DNA of 55,711 nucleotides, taken from positions 1 to 55,711 of the IMG/VR virus record IMGVR_UViG_3300025759_000119; one strand, given 5' to 3'. Every line of letters starts with the position of its first letter. The first letter of the stretch is position 1. The DNA is from a virus. Position numbers and translations under genes: made by a program. Of the stretch, positions 36,505-51,844 are shown one piece after another. The notes below the pieces were generated by a model that was not told where the DNA came from, ran no database searches, and worked only from the letters and a program-made list of their open reading frames with translations.

Positions 36505-37233
36505 TTAGTGTTGAACGATTGCTATTGATTTTGCTTTTACTGATGCGCCGGCGCATAGCTTGCAAGTGTCGCACGTTGCCCGCCGGCCTGCTTCCTTACT
36601 AGCGGGGCATAAAGCTTCTGAATCTTTTATAAGTTCGTCTGTCTTTTGTATAACGCGAAATGTCCGCTTGCCTGATTGCCAAGCTTGGCGGGCTTCTGCT
36701 TCTGTGTCCGCGCTGATCATATAAAGCATTGGATCAACTTCAACCAAGCCTGACTGGTGGCTATAGCCGGTATGGCCTTTAGCTTGTGATAAAAGACTGT
36801 CCCAAATATATGACGGAACCGCTGCGCCATCGCCATATGTACCTATTCGAACCATACGACCGGCACCCAATGCAGCTATAGCTTCATGACCTTGTGCCGT
36901 TTCATATCCGCCTTTCATATAGTGTTTCCAAGTGATCAAAACGCCTTGGAATAATGCAACGTAACATGTCCGACCTTTTGCCATTTTGTATTTGCCGAAT
37001 TCTGGATGCGCCGGCGTTAATGCTTCGCCTCTATGTTTACAATTTCCGCAGATTGAAAAGTCATTGCCTAGCTTGCTATTCAACATTGGATCAAGGCCGT
37101 TATCATTTAAAATGTAGGTTTGCACCATGTCGCCGGTTTTGCGATTGCTGCTTTTAACAATAGCAATAACGACAATGGGCGAGCCGTCTATAAGTGACGC
37201 GCCTTTGTATATGATCGAGTTTTGTGGTTTCAT
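36505..37233 (-). CDS. Cysteine-containing conserved phage protein
   Basis: 242 aa with GAGGGG upstream. N-terminal KPQNSIIYKGASLIDGSPIV, DMVQTYIL and SICGNCKHRGE are hallmarks of a widespread phage/plasmid family with an ICGxCxHR metal-type motif; a second cluster CPASKEAGRRATCDTCKLCAG lies near the C-terminus. The middle (GAGRMVRIGTYGDGAAVPSYIWDSLL) is well conserved in my memory of the family. Function unknown. Single-gene unit with its own element copy 2 and terminator. Confidence 0.7.
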   Translation of the reverse strand: MKPQNSIIYKGASLIDGSPIVVIAIVKSSNRKTGDMVQTYILNDNGLDPMLNSKLGNDFSICGNCKHRGEALTPAHPEFGKYKMAKGRTCYVALFQGVLITWKHYMKGGYETAQGHEAIAALGAGRMVRIGTYGDGAAVPSYIWDSLLSQAKGHTGYSHQSGLVEVDPMLYMISADTEAEARQAWQSGKRTFRVIQKTDELIKDSEALCPASKEAGRRATCDTCKLCAGASVKAKSIAIVQH

Positions 37234-37421: not shown

Positions 37422-37540
37422 TTTGCGCGTCTGGCCTGCGCCCTTTTTCTGTCAAAAGACCATGGTTCATGGTTCAAATGCCTTGGATCTTTGCGCTTTG
37501 CGCGCCCAGCCTGCGCCCCTTGTCTGTCAGGGGCGACCAT
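37422..37540. repeat. Imperfect tandem repeat pair
   Basis: TTTGCGCG(T/C)C(T/C)(G/A)GCCTGCGCCC-type units at 37422-37463 and 37497-37540, both ending in a GACCAT string. GCGCTCTGCGCCTCCCGC-like sequence recurs at 38047-38063. Possibly remnants of duplicated gene ends or terminators. Confidence 0.45.
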
Positions 37541-37580: not shown

Positions 37581-37883
37581 TTATAGTGATTCAGATTCTT
37601 GACGCGGATCGCACGGGGAAAGATGCGCCCATTCGCCGCGTTCGTTGCGCTCCGACCACATGTCGAGGAACGCCTGATGGTGATCTTCGAGCGAATAAGA
37701 CTCATCGCGCGGGGTGCCTTCGTGGAACGTGTCAGAGTCTAACACATCCCAACGCGACCCCTCGTGCAACCCGAGCTCGAACGCGCGGGCTTCCGCCTGC
37801 GTGGCGAACTGGCGCGTGAAGAACTCGCGCTCGCCACGATAAGAACGCTCATCGATAAACAAAACATATGAAAGTTGAACCAT
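37581..37883 (-). CDS. Hypothetical protein
   Basis: 100 aa with GGAG upstream of the ATG. N-terminal strand (VQLSYVLFIDERSYRGER), then an alanine/glutamate helix (TQAEARAFELGLHEGS) and an acidic aromatic stretch (DHHQAFLDMWSERNERGEWAHL). The strand plus QAEARAFE helix resembles the plan of the small early proteins at 34236 and 34439. Forms its own unit with terminator. Function unknown. Confidence 0.65.
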   Translation of the reverse strand: MVQLSYVLFIDERSYRGEREFFTRQFATQAEARAFELGLHEGSRWDVLDSDTFHEGTPRDESYSLEDHHQAFLDMWSERNERGEWAHLSPCDPRQESESL

Positions 37884-37908: not shown

Positions 37909-37946
37909 TGGTTCATGGATCATAGCACACGGAACATGGTTCATGG
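37909..37946. repeat. Two TGGTTCATGG motifs
   Basis: Identical 10-mers at 37909-37918 and 37937-37946, with a third at 37463-37472 and an inverted relative (CCATGAACC) at the TerL start, 39341-39349. They lie in the leader of the gene at 37883, 28 bp apart. Possible operator; weak evidence. Confidence 0.35.
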
Positions 37947-38047
37947 TGTCATCTATTTGACACGTCAAGATTCTGACACGTCAAATTTCTGACTTGAAAA
38001 AAGCGAGGCCACAAACGGAGTTTGTGGCACACGTTCCGTGTCCCTTG
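37947..38047. repeat. Direct repeat DR1 with operators and hairpins
   Basis: 101 bp matching 39085-39202 except for one 16-nt iteron, one A and one substitution. Contains two GACACGTCAA iterons (16-nt period), each with the palindromic TGAC-AC-GTCA core, then GCCACAAAC-GGA-GTTTGTGGC (9-bp stem) and ACACG-TTC-CGTGT. Read leftward the large hairpin is followed 5 nt later by TTTTTT. Confidence 0.8.
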
Positions 38048-38081
38048 CGCTCTGCGCCTCCCGCTTCGAAGTTTGGCGGGA

Positions 38082-38108
38082 TAAAAAAAGAGGCGACCGC
38101 AGCCGCCC
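38082..38108 (-). terminator. Intrinsic terminator, leftward
   Basis: Read leftward: GGCGGC-TGCG-GTCGCC (one G-T pair) followed by TCTTTTTTT. It lies directly after the stop of the gene at 38115. The same hairpin core recurs at 38864-38883. Confidence 0.75.
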
Positions 38109-38114
38109 CAGTTG

Positions 38115-38327
38115 TTAACCGTGTAGGATTTCACTTAACTCACCATCCCATGCGTCATCGTTAGCACAGTGGATTGCATCGATTGGTGACATACCAGCAT
38201 CATAATAGTCGCGCCATGTTGCATCAGCTAAATCGTGGATGCCAAAGCCGACGATGCTTTGTAGTTTTCTATCACACGCTTTTTCAAACGACTCGTATGT
38301 TTTGGTGTCACAAGATACATATGTCAT
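38115..38327 (-). CDS. Hypothetical acidic protein
   Basis: 70 aa from the ATG with GGAG upstream; a longer start is less likely. FGIHDLADATWRDYYDAGMS and a helical acidic end (AIHCANDDAWDGELSEIL) resemble a DLxDxxxxDxxDxGxSPxxA motif seen in small plasmid/phage proteins. Last gene of the HTH-protein operon. Function unknown. Confidence 0.65.
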   Translation of the reverse strand: MTYVSCDTKTYESFEKACDRKLQSIVGFGIHDLADATWRDYYDAGMSPIDAIHCANDDAWDGELSEILHG

Positions 38328-38346
38328 GATCATCTCCAATAAAAGA

Positions 38347-38408
38347 GACCGCGCCACACTTGGGAGAACCCATCGCAGTGACGCGGTCAGTTGCCATTAT
38401 GCGATGGG
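38347..38408 (-). promoter_or_regulatory. Interleaved inverted repeats, possible attenuator
   Basis: GACCGCG (38347-38353) pairs with CGCGGTC (38382-38388), and CCCATCGCA (38369-38377) with TGCGATGGG (38400-38408). The two stems overlap, so they form either a pseudoknot or alternative structures. They fill the leader between the HTH gene stop and the ribosome binding site of the gene at 38327. Confidence 0.5.
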
Positions 38409-38840
38409 CTATTTGTATGCTGTTAGTGATGCGATGCGGTATTTGTATTTACCTGTCACACCGAACCGCTCACGCTCGACATTGTGAAGCCGGCGCAGAT
38501 TTGGCAGCACCTTAGTCTTTACTGTGTCGGTTGTGATGCTTAGATGATTAGCAATCTGCACACGAGACTTGAAGCCTTGGCGTAAGAACTGCTCCGCCTT
38601 GACTAGCTTTTGCGCTGATACACCAAGCCGCTTGTTTAGCTCTGTCTTTGGCTCAGGATCTTCTGTGACTTGCGCCTCTTCGAACACTTCGCCTCTGACA
38701 TAAGCCAGCACAACTCTTGTAACGATGCTGTTAGCATCTCTTGTCTTAACACTGTCAGACTTGTTTGCCAGTTCATTGATCCGCACAGCAGCCGATAGGA
38801 TATCAAGCTTGCTCTCGATGTTGTAATAATTGTCAGTCAT
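38409..38840 (-). CDS. HTH transcriptional regulator
   Basis: 143 aa from the ATG with GGAGG upstream; a longer frame lacks a ribosome binding site. KAEQFLRQGFKSRVQIANHL-SITTDTVKTKVLPNL forms a winged or tri-helical HTH in residues ~88-122 (SRVQIANHLSITTDTVKTKV). The N-terminal half is helical (LSAAVRINELANKSD) and could dimerise. It lies in the operon whose promoter overlaps TTGACACGTCAA operators, so it probably represses itself and may switch early to late expression. No enzyme domain. Confidence 0.7.
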   Translation of the reverse strand: MTDNYYNIESKLDILSAAVRINELANKSDSVKTRDANSIVTRVVLAYVRGEVFEEAQVTEDPEPKTELNKRLGVSAQKLVKAEQFLRQGFKSRVQIANHLSITTDTVKTKVLPNLRRLHNVERERFGVTGKYKYRIASLTAYK

Positions 38841-38863
38841 ATTAACCTCCGATGTTGATGGTT

Positions 38864-38883
38864 GGGGCGACCGCAGCCGCCCC
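38864..38883 (-). other. GC-rich hairpin between zinc gene and HTH gene
   Basis: GGGGCGACCGCAGCCGCCCC, the same core as the terminator at 38092-38107, with similar flank (GTTGTT/ATTGTT). It has no T-run here, so read-through to the HTH gene is likely, perhaps reduced. Confidence 0.5.
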
Positions 38884-38892
38884 GATTGTTTA

Positions 38893-39003
38893 CTATTCAT
38901 TCTCTTCTGCGTCAGCAGCGCACTCGTCACAGGCATAGTCGCCCTCGAACTCGTTCACGATCAGCCAACAATTCTCACAGTCCATGTTTGGTTTTACAGT
39001 CAT
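38893..39003 (-). CDS. 36-aa zinc-ribbon protein
   Basis: A short gene with a strong ribosome binding site (AAGGAG) and two CxxC pairs: CENCW near residue 9 and CDECA near residue 25. It ends acidic (ADAEENE). First gene after the operator-controlled promoter in repeat DR2. A single zinc ribbon of this size usually works by binding another protein; partner unknown. Confidence 0.6.
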   Translation of the reverse strand: MTVKPNMDCENCWLIVNEFEGDYACDECAADAEENE

Positions 39004-39077
39004 ATCTACTCTCCTTAGTTAATGGATGGGATATATCCCATAATCAACAATAGCCCCTACTAGGGCAGACTGCAACA

Positions 39078-39106
39078 ATTATTTTGTCATCTATTTGACA
39101 CGTCAA
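39078..39106 (-). promoter_or_regulatory. Leftward sigma70-like promoter
   Basis: Read leftward: TTGACG, 17-bp spacer, AATAAT. The -35 lies inside the TTGACACGTCAA operator (39095-39106), and two more operator copies follow upstream at 39111-39122 and 39127-39138. It would transcribe the zinc gene and the HTH gene and be repressed by a protein bound to the iterons. Confidence 0.65.
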
Positions 39107-39202
39107 GATTCTGACACGTCAAGATTCTGACACGTCAAATTTCTGACTTGAAAAAAAGCGAGGCCACAAACGGAGTTTGTGGCACACGTTCCGTGTCTCT
39201 TG
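39085..39202. repeat. Direct repeat DR2 with operators and hairpins
   Basis: 118 bp, the second copy of DR1 with three instead of two 16-nt iterons. The GCCACAAAC-GGA-GTTTGTGGC hairpin followed (leftward) by TTTTTTT may insulate the operon promoter from transcription entering from the right. Confidence 0.8.
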
Positions 39203-39342: not shown

Positions 39343-40818
39343 ATGAACCTAGATGCTCTGCCAAAAGAAGTGTTACAGGAAGTTTTGCTGCTGGAAGAAC
39401 AGCGCAAGCGCCTAGAGACACGCGATAAAGCCCAAGAACAGTTTATGCCGTATGTCCATCATGTATATGATGGCTTCATTGAAGGCCGGCATCATATTAT
39501 CATTGCAGAAAAGCTAGAAAAAATCGCGCGTGGTGAATTAAAACGCTTGATTGTAAACATGCCACCCCGGCATTCTAAATCAGAATTTGCTTCGTATCTT
39601 ATGCCTAGCTGGTTTTTGGGCCGGAATCCAAAGTTAAAAATTATTCAAGCTACCATGAATACGGAACTTGCTGTAAGATTTGGACGCAAGGTCCGAGATC
39701 TGATCGCCGACCCTATTTATGGGGAGATCTTTCCCAATACGGACCTAAAACAGGACAGCCAAGCAGCCGGTCGTTGGGAGACCAGCGCTGGCGGGGAATA
39801 TTTTGCGGCTGGGGTGGGCGCTGCAATGACTGGTCGTGGCGCGGATTTGTTAATTATTGACGATCCTCACTCGGAGCAGGACGCACTTTCCCCTAGTGCT
39901 TATGATAATGCGTGGGAGTGGTACACATCTGGCCCAAGACAGCGTCTGCAGCCGGGCGGTGCCATCATTATTGTCCAGACGCGGTGGTCTAAGAAAGACA
40001 TTACGGGCAGGTTACTGCAGGCTCAGGGCGTGGACACCATGACTGACCAATGGGAGGTAGTAGAATTCCCTGCGATTATGCCATCGGGGGAACCACTGTG
40101 GCCGGAATTCTGGCCCAAGGAAGAGTTACTTAAGGTAAAGGCGTCACTGTCTCCCGGAAAGTGGAATGCCCAGTGGCAACAAAATCCTACATCTGACGTT
40201 ACAGCATTAGTGAAACGTGAATGGTGGAACGTGTGGGAGCGAGAAGACACCCCTAAGCTAGAGTATGTGATTCAGTCTTACGATACGGCGTACAGCAAAA
40301 AAGAGACGGCTGACTACTCTGCTATTACTACATGGGGTGTGTTTCAGCCTCGTGAGGACGGGGATCAGCATCTGATCTTGCTTGATGCGAAGAAGGGTCG
40401 CTGGAATTTTCCTGAGTTAAAAGCGATTGCTTTAGAGGAAAATGAGTATTGGGAACCGGACATGATGTTAATTGAGGCGAAGGCTTCTGGTATGCCGCTA
40501 GCGGACGAGTTACGTCTGCAGAATTTGCCGGTTACTACCTTTGCTCCGGGCCGGCGCAAAGGCGGGGGTGGGTTGGACAAAACAACCCGTATGCATATGG
40601 TTGCCCCTATATTCGAATCTGGAAAAGTATGGTATCCTGAACGTAAATTCGCTGAAGAAGTAATAGAAGAAGTTGCCTCGTTTCCAAATGGAGATCATGA
40701 CGATTACTGCGACAGTATGACGATGGCTGTTATGCGGTTTCGGCAGGGCGGCTTCATTAGTTTGGACGGCGAAGAGCTTGAAGACTGGGGCCCACCTCGT
40801 AAAAGAGAATACTATTAA
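39343..40818 (+). CDS. terL: Terminase large subunit
   Basis: 491 aa from ATG (MNLDALPKE); an in-frame TTG 12 codons earlier is less likely. It is the ATP-driven DNA-packaging motor with a headful or cos nuclease. Walker A-like MPPRHSKSE (residues 73-81), Walker B LLIIDDPHSEQD (169-180), coupling motif IIVQTRW. The RNase H-like nuclease has Asp314 (SYDTAYS), Glu378 (LIEAKASG) and Asp453/454 with Asp457 (GDHDDYCDS). Length is usual. First gene of the rightward head operon; the next ATG overlaps its stop. Confidence 0.95.
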   Translation: MNLDALPKEVLQEVLLLEEQRKRLETRDKAQEQFMPYVHHVYDGFIEGRHHIIIAEKLEKIARGELKRLIVNMPPRHSKSEFASYLMPSWFLGRNPKLKIIQATMNTELAVRFGRKVRDLIADPIYGEIFPNTDLKQDSQAAGRWETSAGGEYFAAGVGAAMTGRGADLLIIDDPHSEQDALSPSAYDNAWEWYTSGPRQRLQPGGAIIIVQTRWSKKDITGRLLQAQGVDTMTDQWEVVEFPAIMPSGEPLWPEFWPKEELLKVKASLSPGKWNAQWQQNPTSDVTALVKREWWNVWEREDTPKLEYVIQSYDTAYSKKETADYSAITTWGVFQPREDGDQHLILLDAKKGRWNFPELKAIALEENEYWEPDMMLIEAKASGMPLADELRLQNLPVTTFAPGRRKGGGGLDKTTRMHMVAPIFESGKVWYPERKFAEEVIEEVASFPNGDHDDYCDSMTMAVMRFRQGGFISLDGEELEDWGPPRKREYY

Positions 40819-51228: not shown

Positions 51229-51438
51229 ATGGACGTATCTCTTTTTGTTTCAAGGTACAGAAAAGCCTTGAAAAACCGCATAGAAGACATTAGTGTCTCT
51301 ATAACAAGTGGTAGTGTTTCCAACATGGAAAATTACCGCGCATCCGTAGGTGAGATTCAGGGGCTCACCTATGCACTTGATGAACTTCACGCCCTGCTAC
51401 AGAAGGTTAATTATGACGACGACTCTGATAGTACCTGA
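51229..51438 (+). CDS. Small helical protein
   Basis: 69 aa directly after the previous stop, overlapping the GroES-like start by 26 bp. Helical (FVSRYRKALKNRIEDISVSI; GEIQGLTYALDELHALLQ), acidic end (YDDDSDST). Small helical proteins at this place in head operons often are head-completion or chaperone partners; unproven. Confidence 0.6.
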   Translation: MDVSLFVSRYRKALKNRIEDISVSITSGSVSNMENYRASVGEIQGLTYALDELHALLQKVNYDDDSDST

Positions 51439-51844
51439 CTACATCCTCGCGCAACGTGAGGCAAAAAAGAAAGCCGAAGAGGCTGCAAAACAAAAAACCC
51501 TAAAAGAAAGAATTCCGCAACCCACTGGTTGGCGTTTGCTCGTCATGCCGTATATGGGTCGTGAGAAGACTGAAGGTGGGGTTTATGTACCTGATCAAGC
51601 AAGAGAGCGTGAGGCACGAGCCACTGTCGTAGCTTATGTACTAAAGGTAGGACCTTTGGCATATAAGGACGAGGATAAGTTCGGCGACGCTGGACCGTGG
51701 TGTTCTGAGGGCGATTGGGTATGTATCGGAAGATATGCTGGTTCTCGATTCCAGATTGAGGGTGGCGAAGTCCGGATTATTAACGATGATGAAGTCATCG
51801 CAACCATCGTCGATCCAGACGATATAAAAACATACGGAGCTTAG
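51413..51844 (+). CDS. GroES-like co-chaperonin
   Basis: 143 aa from the ATG preceded by AGAAGG. After a charged helical lead (KKKAEEAAKQKTLKER), the GroES barrel is readable: GWRLLVMPYM, the mobile-loop region GREKTEGGVYVPDQ, VLKVGPL, a GDWVCIGRYAGSRFQIEGGE segment (GDxVLFxKYAGxExxxxGxE) and IINDDEVIATI. It would cap host GroEL, like T4 gp31, to fold the capsid protein encoded 2 kb downstream. No GroEL gene is present in this window. Confidence 0.85.
   Translation: MTTTLIVPDYILAQREAKKKAEEAAKQKTLKERIPQPTGWRLLVMPYMGREKTEGGVYVPDQAREREARATVVAYVLKVGPLAYKDEDKFGDAGPWCSEGDWVCIGRYAGSRFQIEGGEVRIINDDEVIATIVDPDDIKTYGA

Follow-up and report, generated by a model that had tools for sequence, protein, structure and literature searches.

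Two direct repeats, DR1 and DR2, in a run of small leftward genes beside the terminase large subunit gene of a marine phage are best explained as duplicates of a single regulatory leader that faces leftward. Each would head one of two neighbouring small-gene units, and both units would be under one DNA-binding protein, a reading to which we assign a probability of about 60%. The original prediction was of a movable regulator cassette bracketed by the repeats, but the locus is better read as paired regulatory leaders heading two units. DR2 would head unit A (zn36, HTH143 and acid70) and DR1 would head unit B (gp100, then gp242). Because the leaders at units A and B match, a single DNA-binding protein would control both. 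Within each leader copy, a hairpin would stop incoming leftward transcription, and an array of dimer-type 16-bp protein-binding sites would end right before the promoter. Over evolutionary time, recombination between leaders would add, remove and reshuffle small-gene units, and it would occasionally make the copies alike again.

Genomic context

The window, which is the whole stretch of DNA analysed (55,711 bases), is a 55.7-kb IMG/VR virus record with a GC content of ~46%. Its TerL was 53-61% identical to the TerL of HTVC023P, HTVC027P, 023Pt_psg01, and phage DSL-LC04. The annotations of HTVC023P, HTVC027P, and DSL-LC04 contained no matching small leftward gene block adjoining TerL. No integrase or transposase gene was found among the 38 window proteins scanned against PHROGs, in agreement with the prediction of a phage without integrase, and a transposon or integrase-borne unit was rejected on this ground. 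Searches of Rfam and PADLOC gave 0 matches each, 0 tRNAs were found, and a PDB search by sequence gave no convincing match (best E 0.34). A GroES-like co-chaperonin gene (phrog_3188) was located at 51350-51844 and is annotated in HTVC023P too.

A run of small leftward genes fills the stretch between gp242 and TerL. The three genes predicted between the repeats, for a zinc protein, an HTH regulator, and an acidic protein, are each present as a minus-strand open frame. The two predicted copies of a GGCGACCGCAGCCGCC hairpin were both present but are not equivalent, as only the copy at the end of unit A has a T7 run; with up to 3 mismatches allowed, 4 of 100 shuffles also had two or more copies. 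Other short repeats were seen around unit B. Three exact copies of the motif ATGGTTCATGG lie around gp100 and its putative promoter (37462, 37908, and 37936), and the window has six copies when one mismatch is allowed, compared to 1.0 expected. Between gp100 and gp242 lies a direct repeat of 33 nt (37422-37454 and 37497-37529) that carries a GGCGCAGGC-type motif, and similar GGGGCGCAGG motifs recur at this position in relatives.

Table 1 Features of the repeat locus in the window.
Feature	Position	Strand	Remark
DR1, putative unit B leader (terminator-like hairpin followed by three abutting 16-bp sites)	37947..38047	-	101 bp
DR2, putative unit A leader (terminator-like hairpin followed by four abutting 16-bp sites)	39085..39202	-	118 bp
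Terminator-like hairpin in DR1	38008..38028	-	T-run five bases downstream
Terminator-like hairpin in DR2	39163..39183	-	T-run five bases downstream
Three pseudo-palindromic sites of DR1	37947..37994; starts 37947, 37963, 37979	-	HGTCA-N6-TGACD pattern
Four pseudo-palindromic sites of DR2	39085..39148; starts 39085, 39101, 39117, 39133	-	HGTCA-N6-TGACD pattern
Putative extended -10 of unit B promoter, TGTGC TATGAT (TGTGCTATGAT)	37919..37924	-	no recognisable -35
Putative unit A promoter, TTGCAG-17-TATTGT	39047..39075	-	-10 at 39047-39052
zn36, 36-aa four-cysteine (zinc-type) protein	38893..39003	-	weak Pfam C1_2 match, below cut-off
HTH143, predicted winged-helix protein	38409..38840	-	open frame and predicted model
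acid70, small acidic protein	38115..38327	-	phrog_519, E 8e-7
gp100, first gene of putative unit B	37581..37883	-	open frame
gp242, downstream of gp100, probably in unit B	36505..37233	-	phrog_2554, unknown function
Terminase large subunit (TerL), divergent from unit A	39343..40818	+	-
GC hairpin GGCGACCGCAGCCGCC with T7 tail, terminator-like end of unit A	38090..38109	-	T7 run on minus strand
Second GC hairpin GGCGACCGCAGCCGCC copy, between zn36 and HTH143	38866..38881	-	no T tail

The repeat pair

DR1 and DR2 are direct repeats that are 96-98% identical over ~100 bp. They differ essentially by one 16-nt iteron, as had been claimed: a 16-nt unit and an extra T within a T-run make up the 17-bp length gap, and the single substitution, C/T, lies near the end. 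No further copy was present in the 55,711-base window, where the 21-nt hairpin pattern was likewise confined to the two repeats. The iteron pattern with up to 3 mismatches had five matches in the window, all within the repeats, and 0 in shuffles. On the minus strand, each repeat presents in the same order a small hairpin (ACACG-GAA-CGTGT), a 9-bp stem (GCCACAAAC-TCC-GTTTGTGGC), a T-run five bases on, and the abutting 16-bp pseudo-palindromes. The DR1 hairpin folded moderately better than shuffles (z -1.65), and the DR2 hairpin had a z of -2.66. Both repeats are real and look functional. A search with the hairpin pattern for a donor returned the same contigs only.

The repeated units described earlier as iterons are there, although they are better read as a 16-bp pseudo-palindrome, HGTCA-N6-TGACD, with three abutting copies in DR1 and four in DR2. 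We dropped the simple direct-iteron reading, as the pseudo-palindrome accounts for every copy, including the first, degenerate one. HGTCA-N6-TGACD matched seven times in 55,711 bases, each time inside DR1 or DR2, while 50 dinucleotide shuffles of the window gave a mean of 0.44 and a maximum of 2.

Spacing between sites and putative promoters

DR1 and DR2 each end just upstream of a different putative promoter. At the DR1 end, the nearest site (TGTCAAATAGATGACA) starts 38 bases before TATGAT, counted from first base to first base, and at the DR2 end the nearest site (TGTCAAATAGATGACA) starts 48 bases before TATTGT. These fixed distances, like the repeats and the sites, are read directly from the DNA, and the ten-base difference between them is about one helical turn. 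The putative -10s of units A and B differ from each other and lie outside the repeats, and therefore the promoter would not be part of the duplicated unit. A -35 inside the repeat (TTGACG-17-AATAAT) was rejected as the main reading, since DR1 lacks a -10 at the corresponding distance and since TTGCAG-17-TATTGT and TGTGCTAnGAT have counterparts in relatives.

Both distances recur in related phages. Among 11 loci examined, the 38-base distance was found in all six with TGTGCTAnGAT (window, L006, L008, L099, L100, and L153), and this promoter was absent from L007, L019, L039, L047, and L152. The 48-base distance was found in 6/6 loci with a unit A promoter (window, L006, L007, L008, L099, and L100), where the spacing of L099, whose -10 is TACTGT, was counted by eye; the six loci of each count are related and so not independent. 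Between L100 and the window, 10 of the 22 intervening positions differ (manual count) and the spacing is unchanged.

Provided that the -10 is correct, the nearest site of unit B is centred at about -42.5 relative to the putative promoter. Sites near -42 and -52 are untypical of a simple repressor, and the position appears to fit an activator at least as well as a repressor. From this arrangement we infer that the -10s would serve as promoters, the hairpins as terminators, and the 16-bp sites as binding sites of a protein acting as an activator, with its site near -42 at an extended -10 promoter without a -35 in unit B, and near -52, one helical turn further out, in unit A. Downstream of the unit A -10, a palindrome (GGGATATATCCC, 39028-39039), kept as GGGATTTATCCC in relatives, is a possible second operator.

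Leaders in related phages

Loci were gathered via HTH143, TerL, gp242, and the repeat patterns. The TerL scan was a sample that kept 80 of at least 599 stretches, and 97 loci with TerL and its left neighbour were reduced to 74 distinct regions. An HTH143 relative (E<=1) was present in 10 of the 74 regions, L001 and L004 both being of the window type; L152 and L153 were added separately. This gave 11 distinct loci of four types, named here W (window, L006), X (L007, L008, L099, L100), Y (L019, L039, L047, L152), and Z (L153). Rows L002-L005, L009-L015, L094-L098, L147-L151, and L155, the same as or near-identical to the window, L006, L007, or L019, were not counted, nor was L154, which is close to L153. 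Matches of HTH143 to phage records numbered 0.

A leader core resembling CGRRGAACGTGTTGC was found in all 11 distinct loci with an HTH143 relative, in one copy in L007, two copies in the window, L006, L008, L099, L100, L019, and L153, and three copies in L039, L047, and L152. It was found in 0 of the 64 other sampled terminase-adjacent regions, which have no HTH143 match at E<=1; as the 11 loci are relatives, the co-occurrence of core and HTH143 may be shared descent. The GAACGTGTTGC core of the leaders is conserved, and the gene content between leaders varies: zn36 and HTH143 in L008, the same two genes under separate leaders in L047, and HTH143 plus an 84-aa frame in L007. The sites vary as well. 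L008, L099, and L100, whose repeat sequence is different, have three sites at the DR2 position and one or two at the DR1 position, with other inter-site spacings; L153 has only one 16-bp site, and the Y-type leaders have none. Among the relatives, inter-site spacing is 16, 20, or 23 bp and site number 1-4.

Many other terminase-adjacent regions sampled hold direct repeats of different sequence, some extending from promoter-like sequence to the start codon (L017, L022, and L038), and thus repeated leaders are common at this locus. The repeats of L017, L022, and L038 lie between vrrnuc and TerL, are AT-rich and 76-83% identical, and head two gene blocks with the same layout but unrelated sequence.

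Leader copies of the same phage were also compared with copies at the same position elsewhere. Between the window and L006, DR1 and DR2 are 99% identical, compared to 88% for gp100 and 91% for HTH143 at the DNA level, and 92 to 100% for other non-coding flanks. Over a 66-base stretch, own-pair identity in type W was 95-97%, versus 61% or less when the equivalent position of other types was compared. The corresponding values were 86-88% versus 79-83% for type X, a mixed 74-86% versus 70-83% for type Y (for L152, the middle copy was taken as "DR2", as its first copy did not fit the pattern used), and 82% versus 79-83% for type Z. For L039, L047, L152, and L153, own-pair identity was not above the best same-position identity in another type. 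Homogenising of the leader copies is therefore clear only in type W, which carries the case for concerted replacement. Within W, and likewise for L008 and L099, a leader copy was closer to its same-position counterpart in the other phage than to the second copy in its own, which places the last homogenising before those splits.

Hairpin and G-quadruplex tract

In non-W leaders, a tract that is C-rich on the transcript occupies the position of the window's hairpin. On the plus strand, which serves as template when transcription runs leftward, its complement is a G-quadruplex motif, for example GGGTGGGAGGGTGGG. Of the 20 non-W leader copies, 17 had such a motif and 3 lacked it, and it was found in 0 of 4 W copies. 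The loci searched contained 21 such motifs in 161,520 bases inside the regions and 2 in 500,883 bases outside. The two leader copies of L153 reach the motif by different sequences. GGGTGGGAGGGTGGG and its variants recur on the plus strand in the leaders of L008, L099, L100, L019, L039, L047, L152, and L153. The tract may act in the DNA as a quadruplex, in the RNA as a C-rich loading stretch for Rho, or as a site for a protein.

We tentatively suggest that a swappable leader block builds and rebuilds a small-gene battery. The block would combine the conserved core with a transcription-stopping part (a hairpin terminator in the window type and a G-quadruplex/C-rich tract in most copies of the other types) and, in several types, operators in fixed helical phase to the following promoter. 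One to three blocks would then set the number of separately headed, commonly controlled units.

Alternative explanations

The paired-leader reading is favoured by the confinement of all seven window sites to the repeats by a site grammar kept in L008, L099, and L100, and by the recurring distances from site to -10; the Y-type leaders without sites, the T-run five bases off the stem, the modest DR1 fold, and the -10s outside the repeats count against it. A possible but doubtful sub-case is that HTH143 is itself the binder of the 16-bp sites, repressing (or activating) both unit B and its own unit in a lambda-repressor-like circuit. HTH143 is encoded within unit A, and every locus that has the leader core also has an HTH143 relative; the HTH143 model is of moderate confidence overall (mean pLDDT 69.7) with a good C-terminal half, where a winged helix is confidently predicted (residues 67-136), and weakly resembles dimeric ArsR/MarR repressors (best Foldseek E 8.6e-3, none below 1e-3). 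However, L100 and L153 have the same kind of 16-bp site with HTH143 relatives (39% and 33% identity) of different recognition-helix residues, L019, L039, L047, and L152 have HTH143 relatives without any 16-bp site, and the site positions argue against simple repression. A lambda CI-type DNA-binding domain was rejected for HTH143, as the Pfam Phage_CI_repr match was below the cut-off (E 0.027, 15.3 bits, cut-off 22) and the model is a winged helix. A dimeric-type host regulator or another phage protein is equally open as the binder. It is unlikely that the arrays are replication-origin iterons, or packaging sites, instead of operators. The origin reading stays alive through a closely similar unit, TTTTGACGTGTCAGA, arrayed with 15-nt spacing in two other phages: within an Escherichia phage gene that is annotated as replication protein O (blastn E 2e-4), and close to a gene of that kind in a Klebsiella phage (blastn E 0.1). 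Iteron origins are arrays needed for replication that adjoin an initiator gene and an AT-rich stretch. The cumulative GC skew minimum near 37.5-40 kb and the flanking TerS and TerL genes would also suit an origin or packaging role, but the minimum coincides with a change of gene direction, itself a sufficient cause. Each of the two arrays lies directly upstream of a putative leftward promoter at fixed spacing, and inter-site spacing and site number vary in relatives, with none in Y types, which argues against the origin reading. The TTTTGACGTGTCAGA arrays inside or beside the O gene (L156:1438-1566, Escherichia phage vB_EcoS-733R5, and L157) encode SDTSK-type peptide repeats.

The original prediction held that the repeats could allow loss, gain, or amplification of the cassette and thereby change operator number. 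We consider it improbable that they actively recombine in this manner in a living population. Direct repeats of such length and identity are good substrates for homologous recombination, leader copy number and gene content differ among relatives, and contig L002 starts inside DR2, as assemblers break at repeats. Yet neither a deletion junction joining DR1 to DR2 with the genes missing nor a tandem or circle junction had any match in IMG/VR (0 each), and all five contigs with both repeats (window, L003, L004, L005, and L006) show the same unit numbers, with no iteron-number variants; with the window and five other contigs of this type, power is low and low-frequency variants are possible. L007, with a single leader, keeps HTH143 and lacks DR1, gp100, and acid70, and is thus not the predicted deletion product. 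The proposal would have been contradicted if all relatives kept the segment without a repeat pair, but among the 11 distinct loci carrying an HTH143 relative, 10 show two or three leaders and L007 shows one. Gain and loss of leader-bounded units over evolutionary time appear to be supported because leader copy number ranges from 1 to 3 with changing gene content; a change of operator number is plausible in that sense only. Present movement was not seen.

Comparison with known systems

The closest known systems to the proposed paired leaders are the PeSL, or mobile regulatory cassettes, of T4-like phages, reportedly described by Arbiol in 2010 and Comeau in 2014. PeSL combine a terminator stem-loop and a promoter in a repeated intergenic unit, occur in many copies genome-wide, and exchange neighbouring genes. 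The present locus would share with them a terminator-plus-promoter composite that recurs between variable small genes and may be linked to shuffling by homologous recombination, but it falls outside their defining features. Predicted terminator-like hairpins are present in both repeats, and leader copy number (1-3) and gene content change among relatives, with no junction found in IMG/VR; however, the putative -10s are not inside the repeated unit, and only two copies occur, at one locus, with none elsewhere in the window. Unlike PeSL, the repeats carry an operator array, and the phage is not T4-like. PeSLs mediate gene shuffling in T4-like phages, according to PMC4503421.

The 17-bp dyad repeats of Cluster O mycobacteriophages (Corndog) resemble the present sites in being short and palindromic, with many intergenic, in phages without integrase (PMC4351075). 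They number more than 30 over the whole genome; the window has seven sites in two arrays only. The stoperators of Cluster A mycobacteriophages likewise represent a regulator site repeated within a single phage genome. Stoperators are asymmetric, oriented, and genome-wide, and act in termination; all seven sites here are symmetric, next to putative promoters, and in two arrays. Class II activator promoters (CRP/FNR type, lambda CI at PRM) have a site near -41.5 and a poor -35. Unit B would be similar in its 5-6-5 symmetric 16-bp site near -42 and lack of a -35, but the candidate activator is hypothetical, and the second promoter's site near -52 is not at a usual CRP position.

In the literature searched, with partial coverage, neither paired leaders nor leaders with a G-quadruplex were described for HTVC023P-type phages, and the main text of PMC9599517 has 0 occurrences of promoter or direct repeat. 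Read as paired leaders, an odd-looking repeat pair would become a testable rule for the control and exchange of small genes in mostly uncultured marine phages. The rule would predict site spacing, promoter dependence, and the swap between hairpin and G-quadruplex tract, all of which may be tested on plasmids.
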